NCBI GenBank assembly: GCA_021372515.1
Contig: JAJFUG010000110.1
Span: forward strand, 1 to 37,698
Direction: 5' to 3'
DNA length: 37,698 bases
Source of the DNA: a bacterium
Lineage (GTDB): Bacteria; Gemmatimonadota; Glassbacteria; GWA2-58-10
The notes under the pieces were generated by a model. It saw nothing but the letters and a program-made list of their open reading frames with translations. It ran no database searches and was not told where the DNA came from. Shown in pieces: positions 12,155 through 35,288 of this stretch (its first letter is position 1; each line of letters starts with the position of its first letter). The translations under genes and the position numbers were made by a program.

Positions 12155-12215
12155 GTAGGGGCAGGCCCCCGTGCCTGCCCTGTTCTTGCGGGCGGCCACA
12201 GGGGGCCGCCCCTAC
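12155..12215. repeat. Dispersed palindromic repeat, copy 1
   Basis: A 61-bp element bounded by GTAGGGG and CCCCTAC, with two inner hairpins: GGGCAGGC/GCCTGCCC and GGGCGGCC/GGCCGCCC. Its overall shape is a three-way junction. A near-identical copy lies at 33313-33374. It is in the convergent spacer between aspC and the GWxTD gene. It could be a REP/MITE-like element or a transcription boundary. Confidence 0.8.
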
Positions 12216-12288
12216 ATGCTATGGCTTTCTTGAGTTTATTCGTAAGGGCAATTCATGAATGCGCCTGCACTGCATTGACGCGGGCATT

Positions 12289-28648: not shown

Positions 28649-29572
28649 ATGCGCAGCAGTGTCAGCCGTCGGAGTTTCGTCCGCCAATCGCTCGCTTTCA
28701 GCGGGGCCTCGCTGGCCGCCGCAGGGCTGAGCCTGGAGCACACGGCCCTGCAGGCGGCCCAGGCCGCCGCGCCGGCCGCGGACAGCCCAAGGGTGACCGG
28801 CCTGCAGAAAGGCCGTCTGGGCAAGCTGGAAATCTCGCGTCTGCTCTGTGGAGGGAACCTGTTCAGTGGGTTCGCCCACAGCCGCGACCTGGTCTATGTC
28901 TCGGGACTGCTCAAGAACTATTTCACCCCCGAAAAGATCATGGACACGCTGCAGGTCGCCGAGGAGAACGGGATCAACGCCGCGGTGCTGCGCTGCGACG
29001 AGCAGATCGGCTCGGTGCTCGAGCGTTACCGCAAGGAGCGCGGCGGCAGGATACAGTGGATCGCCCAGACCTACCCCAAGCTGGACAACCTCTACGAGAA
29101 CGTGCAGTACGCCATCGACCACGGCGCGGTGGCGGCTTTCCCACAGGGCGGGGTAGGCGACACATTTGTCACCGGCGGGCATGTGGATGAGCTGGGCAAG
29201 GTGCTCGAATTCATGAAGAAAAACGGCCTGGTAGCCGGGATCGGCTCGCACATGCTGGCCGTGACCGCCGCCGCCGAAAAGCACGGCCTCAACCCGGATT
29301 TCTATTTCAAGACCATCAACACCGCAGGCTACGAGACCCAGCCGCCGGCCGAGGTGGCGGCTTTCTTCCGCGAGATCGACAAGCCCTGGATCGCGTTCAA
29401 GGTGCTGGGCGCGGGCGCGGTGCTGCCGCAGGACGGGTTCAAGATGGCTTTCAGCCAGGGGGCCGATTTCATCAACGTGGGGATGTTCGATTTCCAGGTG
29501 AAAGAGGATATCGTGGCTGTGCGCGACCTTCTGGCGGGCAACCTCGACCGTCAGCGGCCCTGGTGCTCCTGA
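28649..29572 (+). CDS. Tat-exported protein with aldo/keto-reductase-like TIM-barrel features
   Basis: Function not recognised. The 307-aa product has a twin-arginine signal SRRSFVRQS followed by an Ala/Leu-rich stretch and cleavage near QAAQAAA. The mature part starts GRLGKLEISRLLCGGN, which resembles the first strand of aldo/keto-reductase folds, and continues with repeated beta/alpha units (INAAVLRCDEQIG, IQWIAQTYPKLD, AAFPQGGVGD, GLVAGIGSHM, WIAFKVLGAGAVLPQ). An intact AKR Asp-Tyr-Lys-His set is not obvious. Start ATG 28649 has GGAGG 7 nt upstream; a longer reading would put the Tat motif inside the protein. It is monocistronic, convergent with the sorting-tail gene. It could be a sugar-isomerase-like or AKR-like periplasmic enzyme. 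Confidence 0.7.
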   Translation: MRSSVSRRSFVRQSLAFSGASLAAAGLSLEHTALQAAQAAAPAADSPRVTGLQKGRLGKLEISRLLCGGNLFSGFAHSRDLVYVSGLLKNYFTPEKIMDTLQVAEENGINAAVLRCDEQIGSVLERYRKERGGRIQWIAQTYPKLDNLYENVQYAIDHGAVAAFPQGGVGDTFVTGGHVDELGKVLEFMKKNGLVAGIGSHMLAVTAAAEKHGLNPDFYFKTINTAGYETQPPAEVAAFFREIDKPWIAFKVLGAGAVLPQDGFKMAFSQGADFINVGMFDFQVKEDIVAVRDLLAGNLDRQRPWCS

Positions 29573-29771: not shown

Positions 29772-30353
29772 CTACTTCAAAACCACCATCTTGCGCGTGG
29801 CGCGGTACTCGCCGGCCTGGATACGGTAGAAATACACACCGCTCGAAACGCGCCGCCCGCCCTCATCCGTGCCGTCCCAGTTCACGCTGTACTGGCCCGG
29901 ACCCTTGGTCTCGCGCACCAAGGTGCGCACCACCTGCCCGCGCAGGTTGTACACGCTTAGCTCCACCATCACCTGGGGCGAACTCTCCGGGATATTGTAG
30001 CTGATCGTGGTGGAGGGATTGAACGGGTTCGGCGAGTTCTGCGCCAGCCCGAACGCCTTGGGCAACTGGGCGCCGCTGCTGCTGAGGCCCAGGTCGGCGT
30101 AGGCCTGGTCCAGCATCTGCTGGGCCATGCCGCCGCCCTCGGCGCTCACGCCGTCGAGAGTCTTCAGGTCGGCGTTGCGCGGGGTGTGCAACACCGAGCC
30201 GTCTGGAAACATTAGGTCTATCTTGTCGCCGTTGGCCCGGATGCTGTAGCCCTGGGCCGAATTTTCCTGGTTCTGTGCGGCTTTGGCCTGCACCGCCGAA
30301 AGGCCCAAAAACAGAGCCACAGCCAGGAGAGCCAGACTTCTCAGTATTCTCAC
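29772..30353 (-). CDS. Secreted protein with FlgD/Por-type C-terminal sorting-like domain
   Basis: A 193-aa secreted protein: Sec signal LALLAVALFLGLSAVQA, a short unrecognised N-terminal region (about 26-100), then NSPNPFNPSTTISYNIPE and a FlgD-Ig-like beta-sandwich ending GVYFYRIQAGEYRATRKMVVLK. This tail is the kind found at the C-terminus of many FCB-group secreted proteins and is related to type IX sorting domains. The start is GTG 30353, with GGGAGG about 5 nt upstream. Here nearly the whole mature protein is the tail. It may be anchored or secreted through a Por-like system, which is not in this window. Confidence 0.8.
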   Translation of the reverse strand: MRILRSLALLAVALFLGLSAVQAKAAQNQENSAQGYSIRANGDKIDLMFPDGSVLHTPRNADLKTLDGVSAEGGGMAQQMLDQAYADLGLSSSGAQLPKAFGLAQNSPNPFNPSTTISYNIPESSPQVMVELSVYNLRGQVVRTLVRETKGPGQYSVNWDGTDEGGRRVSSGVYFYRIQAGEYRATRKMVVLK

Positions 30354-30554: not shown

Positions 30555-32090
30555 TCACTGTTTCTCCGGGAAATCGGAGTCGCCGAACACCTCCGCGCTG
30601 AAAATCTCCAGCTTGGTCCCCTCCTGCTTCCAGGCATCCGGCGGCAGGCCAGCCTTGCGGCAGGTCTGGGCCAGGAAAGTGGCGCGGTCCCAGCCGAACT
30701 CGACCGGCACCTGCGGCAGGAGCAGCCCCTGATAGCCCCCGCGCCGCACAATCAGGCCGTCCCGCCCCACCTGCACCTCGTTCGGGTCGGTCAGGGGACG
30801 GATCGGGCTGAGGACGGAGATTTCGTAGTCCAGCTCCGGCAGCTCGTCCTTGGTCACAGCCGAGAAACGCGGGTCGTGCAGGGCTGCCGCCTCGGCCATC
30901 TCGCGCACAGTCTCCACCAGCGGCTTGACCGCGATAATATAGCCGATGCAGCCGCGCAGCTCACCGTGCTTTTTCAGGGTGACAAACGCCCCCCGTTTCT
31001 CGCCCAGGACCGGCGTAATTGCCTGGCAATCCGGCTTTTGCCCCCCGGCCACGCAGTACCGGACAGTTTGATGCGCCAGATTGAGCAGGTATTTTTTCTC
31101 TTTGTCGTCGAGGCCCATTTTTTCCCCGGAGGTTTTAGTTTTCTCGGTCTGAGCGGCCAGTGTGTCGTCCTGACTGTACAGCCTTGCGGCAAGGTAGCCC
31201 ACTACGCGGTCGCGGTCACCGGTGGCGTCCCCGGAATTGGCGCTGGTCAGCACCTGGGAGCGGTCGGCCCCCAGGGCGCGGGCGGCCTGCATCACCGCGG
31301 CTATCGGCCCGCCGCCGCAGGCCTCGGCCTCGCCCGCGGCCAGCTCGCGCAGAAGACCCTCCGGGTCGAACCGCTCCACGCAGTCCGCGGTGCGGCTGTC
31401 GATGCTCCGGGCCTGCTGATCGGTGTGGAAATGGGACAAATCACTACTCGCCACCAGGAGCACGTCCTTGCGGTTACCGACTGCCTTGGCCAGGGCCGCC
31501 CCCAGGGCCTTGCAATGCTCGGGACGCTGCGAGCCCATGACCACCGGGACCAGACGGAACTTGCCCAGCACGGTCTGCAGGAAAGGAAGCTGCACCTCCA
31601 GGGAGTGCTCGCCCATCCGGCCGGAGTTGTAGTGGCCCTCACGGCCGCAGTGCACCGAGGGCGCACCCGCTGCGACCAGACGGTCGGCCAGGGCGGTGTC
31701 TATCGGCGCCACCCCCAGCGGAGTGCTGTAGGCTCCCCGGCAGAGCACCGAGCTGAACTCGAAATACTCCTGGTGCGAGGGTGAGACCACAATCACCGTG
31801 GCGTAGTCGAAGCCCTCAAGCTGACGGTAGGCGGCGGCGGCCACCAGGCCGGAGTAGACATACCCGGCGTGCGGGCAGACAACGGCCAGGGGGCGCACCC
31901 GCGGCATGGCGGGCCGCGAGTGAGCCAGGAGCTGCTCCAGCATGCCGGCCAGCTCGGAGGAATCAGCCGGGTAGAACGCGCCCGTCACCGCCGGGGGACG
32001 GACCTCCCCCTGGGCGGAAGGCGGGGCGGCGGAGCAGGCCGCGGCCCCCAGCCACAGTGTGAGCGTGCACCAAAGAAACATCTTTTTCAT
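30555..32090 (-). CDS. MEMO-AMMECR1 fusion protein with signal peptide (AmmeMemoRadiSam B+A)
   Basis: 511 aa combining two partners of the AmmeMemoRadiSam system, whose reaction is unknown. Residues 1-19 look like a Sec signal, possibly lipidated at Cys19 (WLGAAAC; the -3 residue is not ideal). Residues about 30-308 are a MEMO domain (class III extradiol-dioxygenase-like fold) with the metal/active-site equivalents His74 in CPHAGYVYSG, His106 in SPSHQEYF, His220 in SSDLSHFH and Cys258 in EACGGGP. After a linker (about 309-327), residues 328-500 are an AMMECR1 domain with its signature GELRGCIGYI (376-385). The start ATG overlaps the stop of the radical SAM gene by 4 bp, so the two are coupled. 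Confidence 0.9.
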   Translation of the reverse strand: MKKMFLWCTLTLWLGAAACSAAPPSAQGEVRPPAVTGAFYPADSSELAGMLEQLLAHSRPAMPRVRPLAVVCPHAGYVYSGLVAAAAYRQLEGFDYATVIVVSPSHQEYFEFSSVLCRGAYSTPLGVAPIDTALADRLVAAGAPSVHCGREGHYNSGRMGEHSLEVQLPFLQTVLGKFRLVPVVMGSQRPEHCKALGAALAKAVGNRKDVLLVASSDLSHFHTDQQARSIDSRTADCVERFDPEGLLRELAAGEAEACGGGPIAAVMQAARALGADRSQVLTSANSGDATGDRDRVVGYLAARLYSQDDTLAAQTEKTKTSGEKMGLDDKEKKYLLNLAHQTVRYCVAGGQKPDCQAITPVLGEKRGAFVTLKKHGELRGCIGYIIAVKPLVETVREMAEAAALHDPRFSAVTKDELPELDYEISVLSPIRPLTDPNEVQVGRDGLIVRRGGYQGLLLPQVPVEFGWDRATFLAQTCRKAGLPPDAWKQEGTKLEIFSAEVFGDSDFPEKQ

Positions 32091-33229
32091 GTCCAGACTC
32101 CGGCAACAGGTTTACCGCAAGCCTTACAGGAACCGCTCTTGAGCGCCACCTCCAACACCGTGTAGCCCACCCGGCGCACCACAACCGCGCCGCAGGAGGG
32201 GCAGCGGGTGGATTCCGAGGGGTGGCCGGGCACGTTGCCCAGGTAGACGAAGTGCAGCCCGGCCTTGCGCCCCAGCTCCAGGGCGCGCTCCAGCGAGGCC
32301 ACCGGAGTGGAGGGCAGGCGGGTCAGACGGTACATCGGGTGGAAACGGGTGAAATGCAGCGGCACATCCGGCCCCAGCTCCCGGGCGACCCAGTCGCACA
32401 GCTCGGCGATCTCAGCCTCGCCGTCGTTCAGCGTGGGCACCATCAGATAGACTATCTCCAGCCATTTTCCCTGCGCGTGGATCAGCTTGAGCGAGTCGAG
32501 CACCGGGGCCAGCTCACCCGAGCAGACTTCCTTATAGTATTTCTCGCGGAACGATTTGAGGTCCACCTTGATCGCATCCAGCGCGCCGCAAAGCTGCACG
32601 AGCGGCTTCTCCTGGATGTAGCCGTTCGAGACCATCACCGCCCGCAGGCCTTTCTCGCGGGCAGCCAGGGCGGTGTCGTACATGTACTCGTAGAACACCA
32701 CCGGCTCGCTGTAGGTGAAAGCCACAGTGCGCGCCCGGCTTTGCGCGGCCGAGGCTGCGGCATCGCGCGGCGGCAGACTGTAGACATCCACCTGCTCGGG
32801 GCGGGTCTGGCTGATCTCCCAGTTCTGGCAGAACGCGCAGTCCACGTTGCATCCGGCCGTGGCCAGGGAAAAGGCGTTTGAGCCGGGCAGGAAATGGAAG
32901 AACGGCTTTTTTTCGATGGGGTCCACGTTCACCGCGCAGGCTGCGCCCCAGACCCGGGTGACATACTTGCCGCCCTTGTTCTCGCGCACTCCGCAATAGC
33001 CGCGCTCCAGGTCATCCACCCGGCACTTGCGCGGGCAGAGCTGGCACTGCACGCGCTGGCTTTCGGCCGGGTCCCAGAACATGGCCTCGTGGTCCGGGAT
33101 ATCGGCCCCGGACAGGCGTGCTTGCGCCCGGGCCGGAGCGGCCAGCCCCGAGGCGGCCACGGCGGCCAGGCAGCCGCCGCAGGAACGTAGGAAATCACGA
33201 CGGTCGAGCCGCACAGCGCAGCCCTCCAT
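32087..33229 (-). CDS. AmmeMemoRadiSam-type radical SAM enzyme with Tat signal
   Basis: 380-aa radical SAM protein. The canonical CxxxCxxC is AGCNVDCAFCQNWEIS (Cys127, Cys131, Cys134). An extra N-terminal Cys cluster (Cys62, Cys65, Cys69, Cys79 in CQLCPRKC and GYCGVREN) and a C-terminal zinc-ribbon-like region (CPSCG and CKACG) are typical of the family, which resembles pyruvate-formate-lyase activases. Uniquely interesting is the N-terminus: RLDRRDFLRSCGG followed by Ala-rich hydrophobic residues and APARAQA, a clear twin-arginine signal with likely cleavage near residue 35. Without it the length fits the family. It is coupled to the MEMO-AMMECR1 fusion downstream. How S-adenosylmethionine and electrons would reach an exported enzyme is unclear. 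Confidence 0.9.
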   Translation of the reverse strand: MEGCAVRLDRRDFLRSCGGCLAAVAASGLAAPARAQARLSGADIPDHEAMFWDPAESQRVQCQLCPRKCRVDDLERGYCGVRENKGGKYVTRVWGAACAVNVDPIEKKPFFHFLPGSNAFSLATAGCNVDCAFCQNWEISQTRPEQVDVYSLPPRDAAASAAQSRARTVAFTYSEPVVFYEYMYDTALAAREKGLRAVMVSNGYIQEKPLVQLCGALDAIKVDLKSFREKYYKEVCSGELAPVLDSLKLIHAQGKWLEIVYLMVPTLNDGEAEIAELCDWVARELGPDVPLHFTRFHPMYRLTRLPSTPVASLERALELGRKAGLHFVYLGNVPGHPSESTRCPSCGAVVVRRVGYTVLEVALKSGSCKACGKPVAGVWT

Positions 33230-33312
33230 TCTTTATCTCGAATAATTCAGAATACCCTCTTCAATCCATCACGGCGATGACTCAGTTAAGGCCCGTCTAT
33301 GCCGTTTTTCCC

Positions 33313-33374
33313 GTAGGGGCAGGCCCCTGTGCCTGCCCCGTTCTGTCCGGACGGCCACGGGGGGCCGCCCCTAC
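33313..33374. repeat. Dispersed palindromic repeat, copy 2
   Basis: 62-bp near-copy of 12155-12215 with identical 15-bp left (GTAGGGGCAGGCCCC) and 15-bp right (GGGGGCCGCCCCTAC) ends; the differences are in the middle. It lies in the 209-bp spacer between the DUF362 gene (ends 33439) and the radical SAM gene (starts 33229), where it may separate transcription of the two halves of the cluster. Confidence 0.8.
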
Positions 33375-33438
33375 GTGTATCGGCCGGTTCCGGAATGTCA
33401 GACTTGGCGGCCGCACCGCGCAAGACATCGAACCGGCC

Positions 33439-34422
33439 TCAATCCAGCACGCTCTCGCGGATACTGGACAGGTCGCTTTCGCCCAGGTTATGGCTGCTGT
33501 CCCCGGCGGTGATAATGTAGCTGGGCTCGCGTCCGGCCTGGGCCAGGCTCATCATCCTGGCGGCCTTGCGCCGCTCCTCCACCATGCGCCAACCCACCCG
33601 GTCCAGGGCCACCGGGTCGGCCGCGGCAAGTATCAGCCCGGCGGGCCAGCTCCACTGGGGACGGTAGGCCGGGCCGCCCTCGTACTGCGCGGTGAACGCC
33701 TCGCAAATCGTGAGCACGGTCTTGCCGCGCAGGGGCGGCGCGCAGTTGAGGTCGGCCACGAACGGGTCGCCACGGTTGGGGTGGTACTTGTTCGGGTTGT
33801 GCACCGCGCCGTAGAGGTTTTTCAGCCCCACCGAAACGCCCACGATGCCGTGGTCCTTGAGTACGGGAAGATTGATCAGCGTGTCGCAGGTCTCGGTCAC
33901 TGTGCGTGAAAAAAGGCTGCCCACCGTGCCCTGGACTATAAGCTCCGGGCTGTAGCCCGCGCTGTCGTTGCCCAGGCACTGGACCTTGCCGCTGCGGACT
34001 ATCTCGAACCCGGCGTGGGTCAGGTCGCGGTCGGAGCGCTCCCAGATCACTATTTTCTGCAGGCCTGGCAGGTTGTCAACCAGTTGCGCGGCCAGGGCGT
34101 GCACGAACTGGGGCGAGCTGCACACCCCATGCCCCGCCAGGCAGTTGGGCTTGAGCCCCACCACCCGCGCCTTTCCCAGGAACGCGGCCCAGGCCTCCCT
34201 TAGGCTGCCCTTGCCGCTCAGATGGCAGATCGCCCGCTCGATCATCGCGGAGGCGGTCTTTTCATCCGGGGCCACGCCAAGGCTGCTGAAAACCTTGTCC
34301 CGCACCGTGACCACCTGCCCGCGCAGGCCGGTCGCTGTGCCTTGTGCGGCTACGGCCGGGCTGGATTTCAGGCTCAGGGCCAAAGTCAGCGGCCCGGCCA
34401 CGAGGAAACGCCGTCTGTCCAT
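33439..34422 (-). CDS. DUF362-domain protein with Tat-like signal
   Basis: 327 aa; DUF362 proteins have no assigned biochemical role. The start ATG at 34422 gives MDRRRFLVAGPLTLALSL, a twin-arginine-like signal; longer readings run into the preceding MEMO gene in another frame. Diagnostic DUF362 features: VGLKPNCLAGHG, TCDTLINLPVLKDHGIVGVSVGLKNLYG, and the C-terminal ADPVALDRVGWRMVEERR. No ferredoxin domain is attached. It begins 8 bp after the cytoplasmic MEMO gene stop, so it is co-transcribed with it. DUF362 proteins often occur near MEMO/radical SAM genes in anaerobes, as far as I recall. Confidence 0.85.
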   Translation of the reverse strand: MDRRRFLVAGPLTLALSLKSSPAVAAQGTATGLRGQVVTVRDKVFSSLGVAPDEKTASAMIERAICHLSGKGSLREAWAAFLGKARVVGLKPNCLAGHGVCSSPQFVHALAAQLVDNLPGLQKIVIWERSDRDLTHAGFEIVRSGKVQCLGNDSAGYSPELIVQGTVGSLFSRTVTETCDTLINLPVLKDHGIVGVSVGLKNLYGAVHNPNKYHPNRGDPFVADLNCAPPLRGKTVLTICEAFTAQYEGGPAYRPQWSWPAGLILAAADPVALDRVGWRMVEERRKAARMMSLAQAGREPSYIITAGDSSHNLGESDLSSIRESVLD

Positions 34423-34430
34423 ATTTATCT

Positions 34431-35288
34431 TCAAGCCTCGGGGCTTGCCTTGCGGTAAAATATCCCCGCGGTGTAGCCCACCACGTGATTGTAGTCCCCG
34501 CTGCGCTCGCCGCTGGTGGCGTAGCTCAGATCCTCGCCCGAGTCGGCGCCCAGGCCGCGGGCTGCGATCATGGCCGCGATCAGGGGCCCGGCCCCGCAGG
34601 CCTCGGCCCGGCTGCCCCGGATGTCGAGGAACAGGCCGTCCGGATCGAACGCGTTGATCCGCTCGACCACCAAGCTGTCCAGGCACTCGGCCCGCTGCTG
34701 GCTGTGGTAATGGGACAGGTCGGTGCTGGCCACGACCAGCGCGCGCCGCCCGGCCAGGGCATTCATCAGCGCCCCGGCCAGGCACTGGCAGGAATCCTGG
34801 TCCTGCGAGCCCATCACCACCGGCAGGATGTTGAACGGCCCCTCCAGCACCACCTGCAGGAACGGCAACTGCACCTCCAGGGCGTGCTCGCCCCCCAGGT
34901 GCCCCACCGCGGCCACCCGCACCCGGCCGTTCTCCATTTTCTCCAGGATTTCAACAGCCTCGCGGTCCACTGGCAGCTCGCCCAGCGGTGTGAGATACGA
35001 CTTGCCGCCGAACACGCTGCTGTAGCCGAAAGACTCACGGTGGCTGGGCGAAATGACCGCCACTGTGTCGAAACCGCGGCCACGCACCTGCCTGTAGGCG
35101 AAAGCCGCCACCGGCGCGGAATAGATGTAGCCGGCGTGCGGGGCGACCAGGGCCAGGATGTCCAGGTTCGAGCGGTCCAGGTCCACCCGGTCCAGATAAG
35201 CGGTGATCTCGTTGCGGAGGCGGTCGGGATCGGCGGGATAGAACTGTCCGGCCACCACCGGTTTGCGTACCTCCAGGCCCATTCCCAT
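34431..35288 (-). CDS. MEMO-family protein, leaderless paralogue (AmmeMemoRadiSam B)
   Basis: 285 aa, one MEMO domain without signal peptide or AMMECR1 extension, so predicted cytoplasmic. The family residues are all kept: His51 in APHAGYIYSAP, His83 in SPSHRESFGYSS, His193 in STDLSHYH and Cys231 in EACGAGPL. It is a clear paralogue of the MEMO half of the exported fusion (shared EVQLPFLQ, PVVMGSQ and GDxxxVVGY). Start ATG 35288, with GGAGG 8 nt upstream. Reaction unknown; MEMO proteins share a fold with metal-dependent dioxygenases and bind metal in some homologues. Confidence 0.9.
   Translation of the reverse strand: MGMGLEVRKPVVAGQFYPADPDRLRNEITAYLDRVDLDRSNLDILALVAPHAGYIYSAPVAAFAYRQVRGRGFDTVAVISPSHRESFGYSSVFGGKSYLTPLGELPVDREAVEILEKMENGRVRVAAVGHLGGEHALEVQLPFLQVVLEGPFNILPVVMGSQDQDSCQCLAGALMNALAGRRALVVASTDLSHYHSQQRAECLDSLVVERINAFDPDGLFLDIRGSRAEACGAGPLIAAMIAARGLGADSGEDLSYATSGERSGDYNHVVGYTAGIFYRKASPEA

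Follow-up and report, generated by a model that had tools for sequence, protein, structure and literature searches.

Four adjacent genes on the minus strand of the window, by which we mean the whole stretch of 37,698 nucleotides analysed, probably encode an exported variant of the AmmeMemoRadiSam system, three of whose proteins, judging from their sequences, would leave the cytoplasm and be located together. To our knowledge, radical SAM enzymes have so far been treated as cytoplasmic because of the supply of SAM and reductant, and we know of no reaction assigned to MEMO or AMMECR1, both conserved from archaea to humans. The open reading frames (30555-35288, minus strand) bear out the four neighbouring genes of the initial annotation, namely a solo MEMO, a DUF362 protein, a radical SAM enzyme and a MEMO-AMMECR1 fusion, and the features read in this segment are as follows.

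30555-32090, minus strand: MEMO-AMMECR1 fusion (TIGR04336 plus TIGR04335, from profile matches), 511 aa
32037-32090, minus strand: Sec leader on the fusion, MKKMFLWCTLTLWLGAAA followed by C19; its lipobox, AAAC, is weak
31185-32000, minus strand: MEMO domain within the fusion, where H74, H106 and C258 match human MEMO1 ligands H49, H81 and C244
30585-31091, minus strand: AMMECR1 domain of the fusion, LRGCIG intact; the sole AMMECR1 of the genome
32087-33214 (33229 if ATG), minus strand: Tat-leader-bearing radical SAM enzyme (TIGR04337), 375 aa long if begun at GTG 33214 and 380 aa if begun at ATG 33229
33125-33214, minus strand: radical SAM Tat leader, MRLDRRDFLRSCGGCLAAVAASGLAAPARA, read in the sequence; predicted cleavage MRLDRRDFLRSCGGCLAAVAASGLAAPARA/Q
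32828-32851, minus strand: radical SAM cluster motif CNVDCAFC, a motif present in 59/59 leader-bearing homologues
33311-33381, minus strand: dispersed palindromic intergenic repeat between the DUF362 and radical SAM genes
33439-34422, minus strand: Tat-leader-bearing DUF362 protein (PF04015; 72 bits in Pfam, cut-off 24) of 327 aa
34342-34422, minus strand: DUF362 Tat leader, MDRRRFLVAGPLTLALSLKSSPAVAAQ, read in the sequence
34431-35288, minus strand: solo MEMO (TIGR04336), 285 aa, leaderless, metal-site residues intact

The repeat occurs at least 40 times in the genome and is not part of the AmmeMemoRadiSam system. The three families of that system (TIGR04335, TIGR04336 and TIGR04337, each an NCBIfam 'hypoth_equivalog') adjoin or overlap on one strand in the window, likewise in the sister genus, and all exceed their cut-offs: 383.1 bits for the radical SAM enzyme (cut-off 220), 261.1 and 256.5 bits for the two MEMO copies (cut-off 26) and 192.7 bits for AMMECR1 (cut-off 99), the fusion start codon overlapping the radical SAM stop (ATGA). 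The catalytic motifs were all found unbroken, namely the CxxxCxxC of the radical SAM enzyme together with its SAM-binding TYSEP, the LRGCIG of AMMECR1, and the MEMO motifs PHAG, SH, EHS, SSDxSH and ACG, which align with the metal ligands H49, H81 and C244 of human MEMO1 (PMC11081632). By its motifs the window enzyme is a member of the radical SAM superfamily, and [4Fe-4S] binding and SAM cleavage are predicted for it. Its nearest solved structures by sequence are the glycyl-radical-enzyme activases PflA and NrdG (3c8f, E 3.5e-14), which share the CxxxCxxC core; unlike them, it lies in a locus without a glycyl radical enzyme and carries extra N- and C-terminal cysteine clusters and a leader. 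The MEMO domain has the fold of human MEMO1 and LigB-type extradiol dioxygenases (Foldseek TM 0.81 to 7kq8 and 7l5c) and the His/His/Cys metal ligands, but differs in its leader and its fusion to AMMECR1. The two His plus Glu site of the LigB type is absent from it, Cys replacing Glu as in MEMO1, for which no dioxygenase activity has been shown (PMC11081632). A sequence search found no solved structure related to the DUF362 protein. AMMECR1 was one of the families that marked genomes as anaerobic in an oxygen-prediction model of 2026 (PMC13386939).

The window differs from AmmeMemoRadiSam as defined in that a single polypeptide, led by a Sec signal, combines MEMO and AMMECR1, a Tat leader precedes the radical SAM enzyme, and a DUF362 protein joins, as does a SpeE-like membrane protein in other loci. 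Both Tat leaders of the window, with the motifs DRRDFLR and DRRRFLV, have a hydrophobic stretch and an AxA site, the DUF362 N-terminus reading MDRRRFLVAGPLTLALSL..AVA/AQ. For the radical SAM enzyme GTG 33214 is the likelier start, since it has GGAGGG upstream and ATG 33229 lacks such a site, and the Tat motif is present from either; against the NCBIfam Tat model TIGR01409 the protein scores 15.2 bits, just below the 16.7 cut-off. The sister genus keeps the cluster, again with Tat leaders on the DUF362 protein (RRRNFV) and the radical SAM enzyme and a Sec leader on the fusion, so that the Tat signals annotated on two of the proteins, and their absence from the solo MEMO, are repeated there; most DUF362 neighbours of other exported loci also carry a Tat leader. 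The fusion, whose N-terminus reads MKKMFLWCTLTLWLGAAAC/SAA, had been given a Sec/lipoprotein-like signal, of which the Sec part stands and the lipoprotein part is weak. Its AAAC lacks the usual -3 residue of the consensus [LVI][ASTVI][GAS]C, and the sister-genus fusion has an ordinary SPI-like leader with no Cys at the lipobox position. Lipidation of the fusion is thus doubtful, and lipoprotein character, not being conserved, was discarded as its defining trait.

A single leader proves little, because 0.6-12% of shuffled N-termini pass the single-leader tests, and it is conservation that constitutes strong evidence. In a sample of 80 named loci and their relatives, the leader-bearing radical SAM enzymes form one clade (three changes on the tree; support 82, not starred) spanning about 20 phyla, one of them archaeal, with the Tat motif kept from Planctomycetota to Altiarchaeota. 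The fusion has a leader in 31/31 loci where the radical SAM enzyme has one and both are readable, compared with 1/6 where it is leaderless, so the co-occurrence for which a survey had been proposed is borne out, and three Bacteroidales loci have lost both leaders together. Matches to TIGR01409 were obtained for 20/48 leader N-termini, with none of the 24 leaderless controls among the listed matches, and to Pfam PF10518 for 19/48 versus 0/24.

The type of leader follows the translocon. TatC, which the window genome encodes (on C201, E 2.8e-64), is present in 44/47 genomes with Tat-type leaders versus 3/12 with Sec-type leaders (9/12 being without it), and in Omnitrophota in 6/6 versus 6/37, its absence being uncertain because most genomes are draft MAGs. 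Such a swap from Tat to Sec following TatC indicates that export itself is under selection, from few independent cases: the comparative tests hold two to six starred independent pairs and no sign test reaches 0.05. Some Omnitrophota within the clade have a leaderless radical SAM enzyme despite TatC; hitch-hiking on a Tat partner was considered for these, and nothing is evident upstream in the three loci inspected (L053, L077 and L094). Good support for the proposed activity of the complex outside the cytoplasm comes from the co-occurring leaders, the joint loss in Bacteroidales and the use of Sec for Tat mostly where TatC is lacking; actual export, complex formation and chemistry outside are inferred.

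Whether the radical step itself takes place there is a separate matter, and radical catalysis beyond the cytoplasmic membrane is proposed only tentatively, as less likely than not. Tat exports proteins folded, with cofactors already loaded, and we know of no SAM pool or low-potential electron source outside the membrane; the enzyme, loaded with cluster and SAM, might act in the cytoplasm before its export and have no other role outside than to bind metal or an iron-sulfur cluster, a serious possibility that still falls short of likely. The binding of Fe or Cu(I) by MEMO (PMC11081632, PMC9477392) would suit such a role. Against it, the cluster motif is retained in every leader-bearing enzyme, including those of Sec type, which would fold only after crossing, and the fusion, travelling unfolded through Sec, would probably not be present inside as a folded substrate. 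It is improbable that the leaders are instead N-terminal membrane anchors holding the enzymes at the cytoplasmic face: certain Sec-type leaders have no clear cleavage site (L072 and L092, for example), but positive charges mostly precede the hydrophobic stretch, an arrangement that places the domain outside according to the positive-inside rule, while the window Tat motifs come with AxA sites and leader type tracks TatC. Translation from internal starts, giving ordinary cytoplasmic AmmeMemoRadiSam proteins, is very improbable. An in-frame ATG does lie just before the window radical SAM core (EAM, 33082), and in 37/59 leader-bearing homologues an ATG or GTG falls within the 28 codons that precede the core; good internal starts, which the initial annotation had named as evidence against export, are nevertheless mostly absent, as 22/59 have none, including the sister-genus copy, and only 10 have a ribosome-binding-like site, to which the breadth of Tat motif conservation and the GGAGGG before GTG 33214 can be added. 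The notion of a local oddity, one lineage having gained signals by fusion with no meaning for the system, could draw on a leader perhaps gained only once, but is already contradicted by the survey and tree, with their many phyla, paired leaders and common partners, and hardly merits credence.

The solo MEMO had been taken for an internal counterpart of the exported MEMO, and the data are only compatible with this. No leader was found from any upstream start, and the sister-genus copy (L030:1563-2402) is leaderless too; on the other side, the solo MEMO groups weakly with the MEMO of exported fusions (SH-aLRT 80), and an internal set would lack its AMMECR1, as none without a leader exists in the genome. 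A complete cytoplasmic counterpart system was sought by a piecewise genome search and none was found. The second radical SAM paralogue, on another contig (C111), is leaderless; its neighbour is a QueE-like gene, and neither MEMO nor AMMECR1 lies close by. The third MEMO (C50) is distant.

In other lineages a new partner has emerged, a membrane protein in which a spermidine-synthase-like domain, predicted outside, is flanked by seven transmembrane segments on either side. It adjoins 28/59 exported loci versus 0/28 leaderless loci; five genomes in which a leaderless enzyme had been met first also gave SpeE-like matches, and these pointed to a further AmmeMemo locus, with one or more leaders readable in four of the five. 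Like the fused MFS/spermidine synthases (NF037959), it carries a Spermine_synth domain (PF01564; Foldseek to 1uir and 3anx) set between transmembrane segments, and it differs from them in its 7+7 arrangement, its tie to exported AmmeMemo loci and the loss of the catalytic Asp, retained in only 4/27. It was rejected as a component of the window system, as the genome holds only distant relatives of 1070-1085 aa and no full-length copy.

In the working model of an exported system, the iron-sulfur cluster would be loaded into the radical SAM enzyme in the cytoplasm and the enzyme would cross folded through the Tat pore, while Sec would carry out the fusion and Tat the DUF362 protein, the proteins meeting either in the periplasm or on the outer membrane face of the cytoplasmic membrane. 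Their most likely work there would be a SAM-dependent radical modification of an envelope-borne or metal-bound substrate, whose product the MEMO metal site and AMMECR1 domain may take up or bind. In other lineages, the SpeE-like protein, with its outward nucleoside-binding domain, is the best candidate for supplying or recycling SAM, and a DsbD-like protein for supplying electrons. The full scheme, in which SAM is passed or held by a spermidine-synthase-fold membrane protein, electrons come from outward thiols or quinones and the Sec route serves where Tat is lacking, is speculative and rather unlikely in all its parts.

No described exported version of AmmeMemoRadiSam was found in the open-access literature searched, a scope outside which Burroughs et al. 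2019 falls, and for the function of the system or for exported radical SAM enzymes only name lists and passing mentions were found there. An exported branch with its catalytic residues kept would imply a reaction outside the cell membrane in these organisms; it would narrow the candidate substrates to envelope or external ones, name the DUF362 and SpeE-like membrane proteins as new partners, and make the assumption of cytoplasmic radical SAM chemistry directly testable. The recurrence of this exported form across many bacterial phyla, often with the additional membrane protein, suggests that radical SAM chemistry may also proceed outside the cell interior, on which it has been thought to depend.

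The cluster lies on contig C110 of a draft genome of 4.87 Mb (99.5% complete), and the initial annotation's reading of it as four adjacent minus-strand AmmeMemoRadiSam and DUF362 genes agrees with the NCBIfam and Pfam assignments, the three NCBIfam families scoring well over their curated cut-offs. In transcription order, the genes are:

34431-35288, minus strand: solo MEMO, first (NCBIfam AmmeMemoRadiSam protein B)
33439-34422, minus strand: DUF362 protein, second (Pfam DUF362)
32087-33214 or 32087-33229, minus strand: radical SAM enzyme, third (NCBIfam AmmeMemoRadiSam radical SAM)
30555-32090, minus strand: MEMO-AMMECR1 fusion, fourth (NCBIfam AmmeMemoRadiSam B+A)

The GTG at 33214 is the most likely radical SAM start, because GGAGGG stands at ribosome-binding distance from it and the ATG at 33229 has nothing comparable. 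The start codon of the fusion overlaps the stop codon of the radical SAM gene (ATGA), which makes translational coupling of the two probable. Co-transcription across the gap that separates the DUF362 gene from the radical SAM gene is not certain, since this gap holds a palindromic repeat of 71 bp, of which the genome has at least 40 copies (GC-rich, intergenic and REP-like; 33311-33381, and again at 12155-12218). Directly downstream of the fusion is a gene for a secreted protein with a FlgD_ig / T9SS-type C-terminal tail (29772-30353, minus strand), and beyond the cluster on the other strand a protein of 307 aa that carries a Tat-type leader, SRRSFVRQS (28649-29572, plus strand), has no match in Pfam or NCBIfam; both are kept in the sister genus, the latter at L030:7315-8229.

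The catalytic motifs are intact, as had been noted from the sequence. The radical SAM enzyme carries CxxxCxxC together with an N-terminal CxxCx3C...C set and a C-terminal CxxC pair, LRGCIG is retained in the AMMECR1 domain, and H74, H106 and C258 of the fusion correspond to the metal ligands H49, H81 and C244 of human MEMO1 (PMC11081632). AlphaFold models of 27 fusions have a mean pLDDT of 89, the leader region being of low confidence, and Foldseek places the MEMO domain close to human MEMO1 (7kq8, 7l5c; TM 0.81) and the AMMECR1 domain close to archaeal AMMECR1 proteins (1vaj; TM 0.79). By all sequence criteria tested, the system qualifies as AmmeMemoRadiSam.

Three leaders can be read from the sequence, on the radical SAM enzyme (MRLDRRDFLRSCGGCLAAVAASGLAAPARA, followed by Q), the DUF362 protein (MDRRRFLVAGPLTLALSLKSSPAVA, followed by AQ) and the fusion (MKKMFLWCTLTLWLGAAAC). 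Leaders were called by a simple in-house detector, not SignalP, and as about 1-12% of composition-preserving shuffles also pass it, a single leader is little proof and conservation carries the weight. As an independent predictor, the curated Tat models TIGR01409 and PF10518 match 20 and 19, respectively, of 48 leader N-termini and list none of 24 leaderless controls; the window radical SAM enzyme reaches 15.2 bits against the TIGR01409 cut-off of 16.7, and the same search also returns HybA, NapA and hydrogenase small-subunit N-termini. TatC is found in the genome. The sister genus (G001) has the entire cluster in the same gene order, with Tat leaders on the radical SAM enzyme (SRRDFF) and DUF362 protein (RRRNFV) and a Sec leader on the fusion; its solo MEMO is leaderless, and its radical SAM gene offers no alternative ATG or GTG within the 28 codons before the radical SAM core. 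An in-frame TAG within the AMMECR1 domain of its fusion (L030:5794-5796) reflects assembly error or decay.

Among 84,980 species genomes scanned, the 80 loci nearest to the window enzyme were taken; being its best matches, they do not sample the family at random. They come from Acidobacteriota, Planctomycetota, Latescibacterota, KSB1, Myxococcota, Thermodesulfobacteriota, Verrucomicrobiota, Kiritimatiellota, Lentisphaerota, Omnitrophota, Elusimicrobiota, Bacteroidota, Chloroflexota, Armatimonadota, Poribacteria, Altiarchaeota and others. Counting the window and G001, 35 radical SAM N-termini are twin-arginine, 12 Lys-Arg and 12 Sec-like, the remainder being leaderless, and CxxxCxxC is intact in all 59 leader-bearing enzymes. 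Together with seven nested rows, these enzymes make up one side of a branch (66 rows; SH-aLRT 82, not counted as supported), and the leader trait needs three changes on the tree. Outside this clade fall most archaeal copies, canonical copies and the genome's own second radical SAM enzyme (L032:9493-11499, contig C111), which is leaderless, kept in all five related genomes and adjoined by a QueE-like gene and by a Cys-rich protein of 113 aa that has no Pfam match. The genome has these two radical SAM paralogues, a single AMMECR1 gene, that of the exported fusion, and three MEMO genes, the third of which (L033:1760-3043, contig C50; 427 aa) carries about 125 additional residues at the N-terminus that belong to no known family, and sits on a very long tree branch.

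In the proposed survey for radical SAM leaders that co-occur with leader-bearing MEMO or AMMECR1, where both starts are readable, the fusion has a leader in 31/31 loci with a leader-bearing radical SAM enzyme (two, L071 and L087, called by eye, with no Lys/Arg before the hydrophobic part) vs 1/6 without (Fisher 1e-5). Three Bacteroidales loci nested in the leader clade (L095, L096, L117) have lost the leader from both proteins; TatC is present in their genomes, so that Tat loss does not account for it. Leaderless Omnitrophota enzymes in the clade (L244, L239, L210, L251, L212, L227, L219, L246, L256, L224, L253, L243, L255, L230, L235, L053, L077, L094) start at the core, come from TatC-positive genomes and form a subclade, in which the one adjacent fusion seen (L077) has kept its Sec leader and lost the MEMO Cys.

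Leader type follows TatC, found in 44/47 genomes with Tat-type leaders vs 3/12 with Sec-type (Fisher 3e-6), and, in a second sample of 60 Omnitrophota loci from 145 genomes, a few of them shared with the first, in 6/6 vs 6/37 (Fisher 2e-4); both P values ignore shared descent. Starred branches, those counted as supported, yield two to six independent pairs, nearly all differing pairs lying in the expected direction, and no sign test on them reaches 0.05. The pattern fits the prediction of selection for export and is hard to explain by a decorative leader.

Neighbour clustering across all loci placed a 700-800 aa membrane protein beside 28/59 leader-bearing loci (L063:2486-4786, L059:7725-10013 and 26 others) and 0/28 leaderless ones; it is also present in L077, which belongs to the leader clade but is leaderless. 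Seven TM helices (6 to 8 by a crude method) precede a Spermine_synth-like domain (PF01564), with about seven more following (AlphaFold pLDDT 89, pTM 0.90; Foldseek matches 1uir, 3anx and others), and as most are N-in by the positive-inside rule, the SpeE-like domain is predicted to face outside. Acidic nucleoside-binding residues are retained in 24/27 and 27/27, and the catalytic-Asp position holds Asp in only 4/27. Five genomes had at first shown a leaderless enzyme, and full-length matches in them led to further AmmeMemo loci (L159-L162, L176), with readable leaders on the L159 radical SAM enzyme (Tat), on the L160 and L176 fusions, and in L162 (Tat and Sec). A DsbD-like protein lies between the radical SAM enzyme and the SpeE-like protein in L059 and L065. 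The window genome lacks a full-length copy, so the partner is not required.

We found no description of AmmeMemoRadiSam in this compartment, the open-access papers naming the system or mentioning it in passing. Burroughs and colleagues are said to have surveyed MEMO contexts (J Biol Chem, 2019), and may mention signal peptides. DUF362 shares a Pfam clan with DUF2088, the domain of the lactate racemase LarA (PMC11770544); this is a hint, and only a hint, that the protein is related to a cofactor or metal. Export and co-location of the system are the best-supported steps and, judged from sequence, quite probable; outside, the enzyme might then carry out a SAM-dependent radical modification whose product or metal would be handled by MEMO-AMMECR1, a working that we put forward tentatively and hold to be about as likely as loading and reaction before export, each at a rather low probability.
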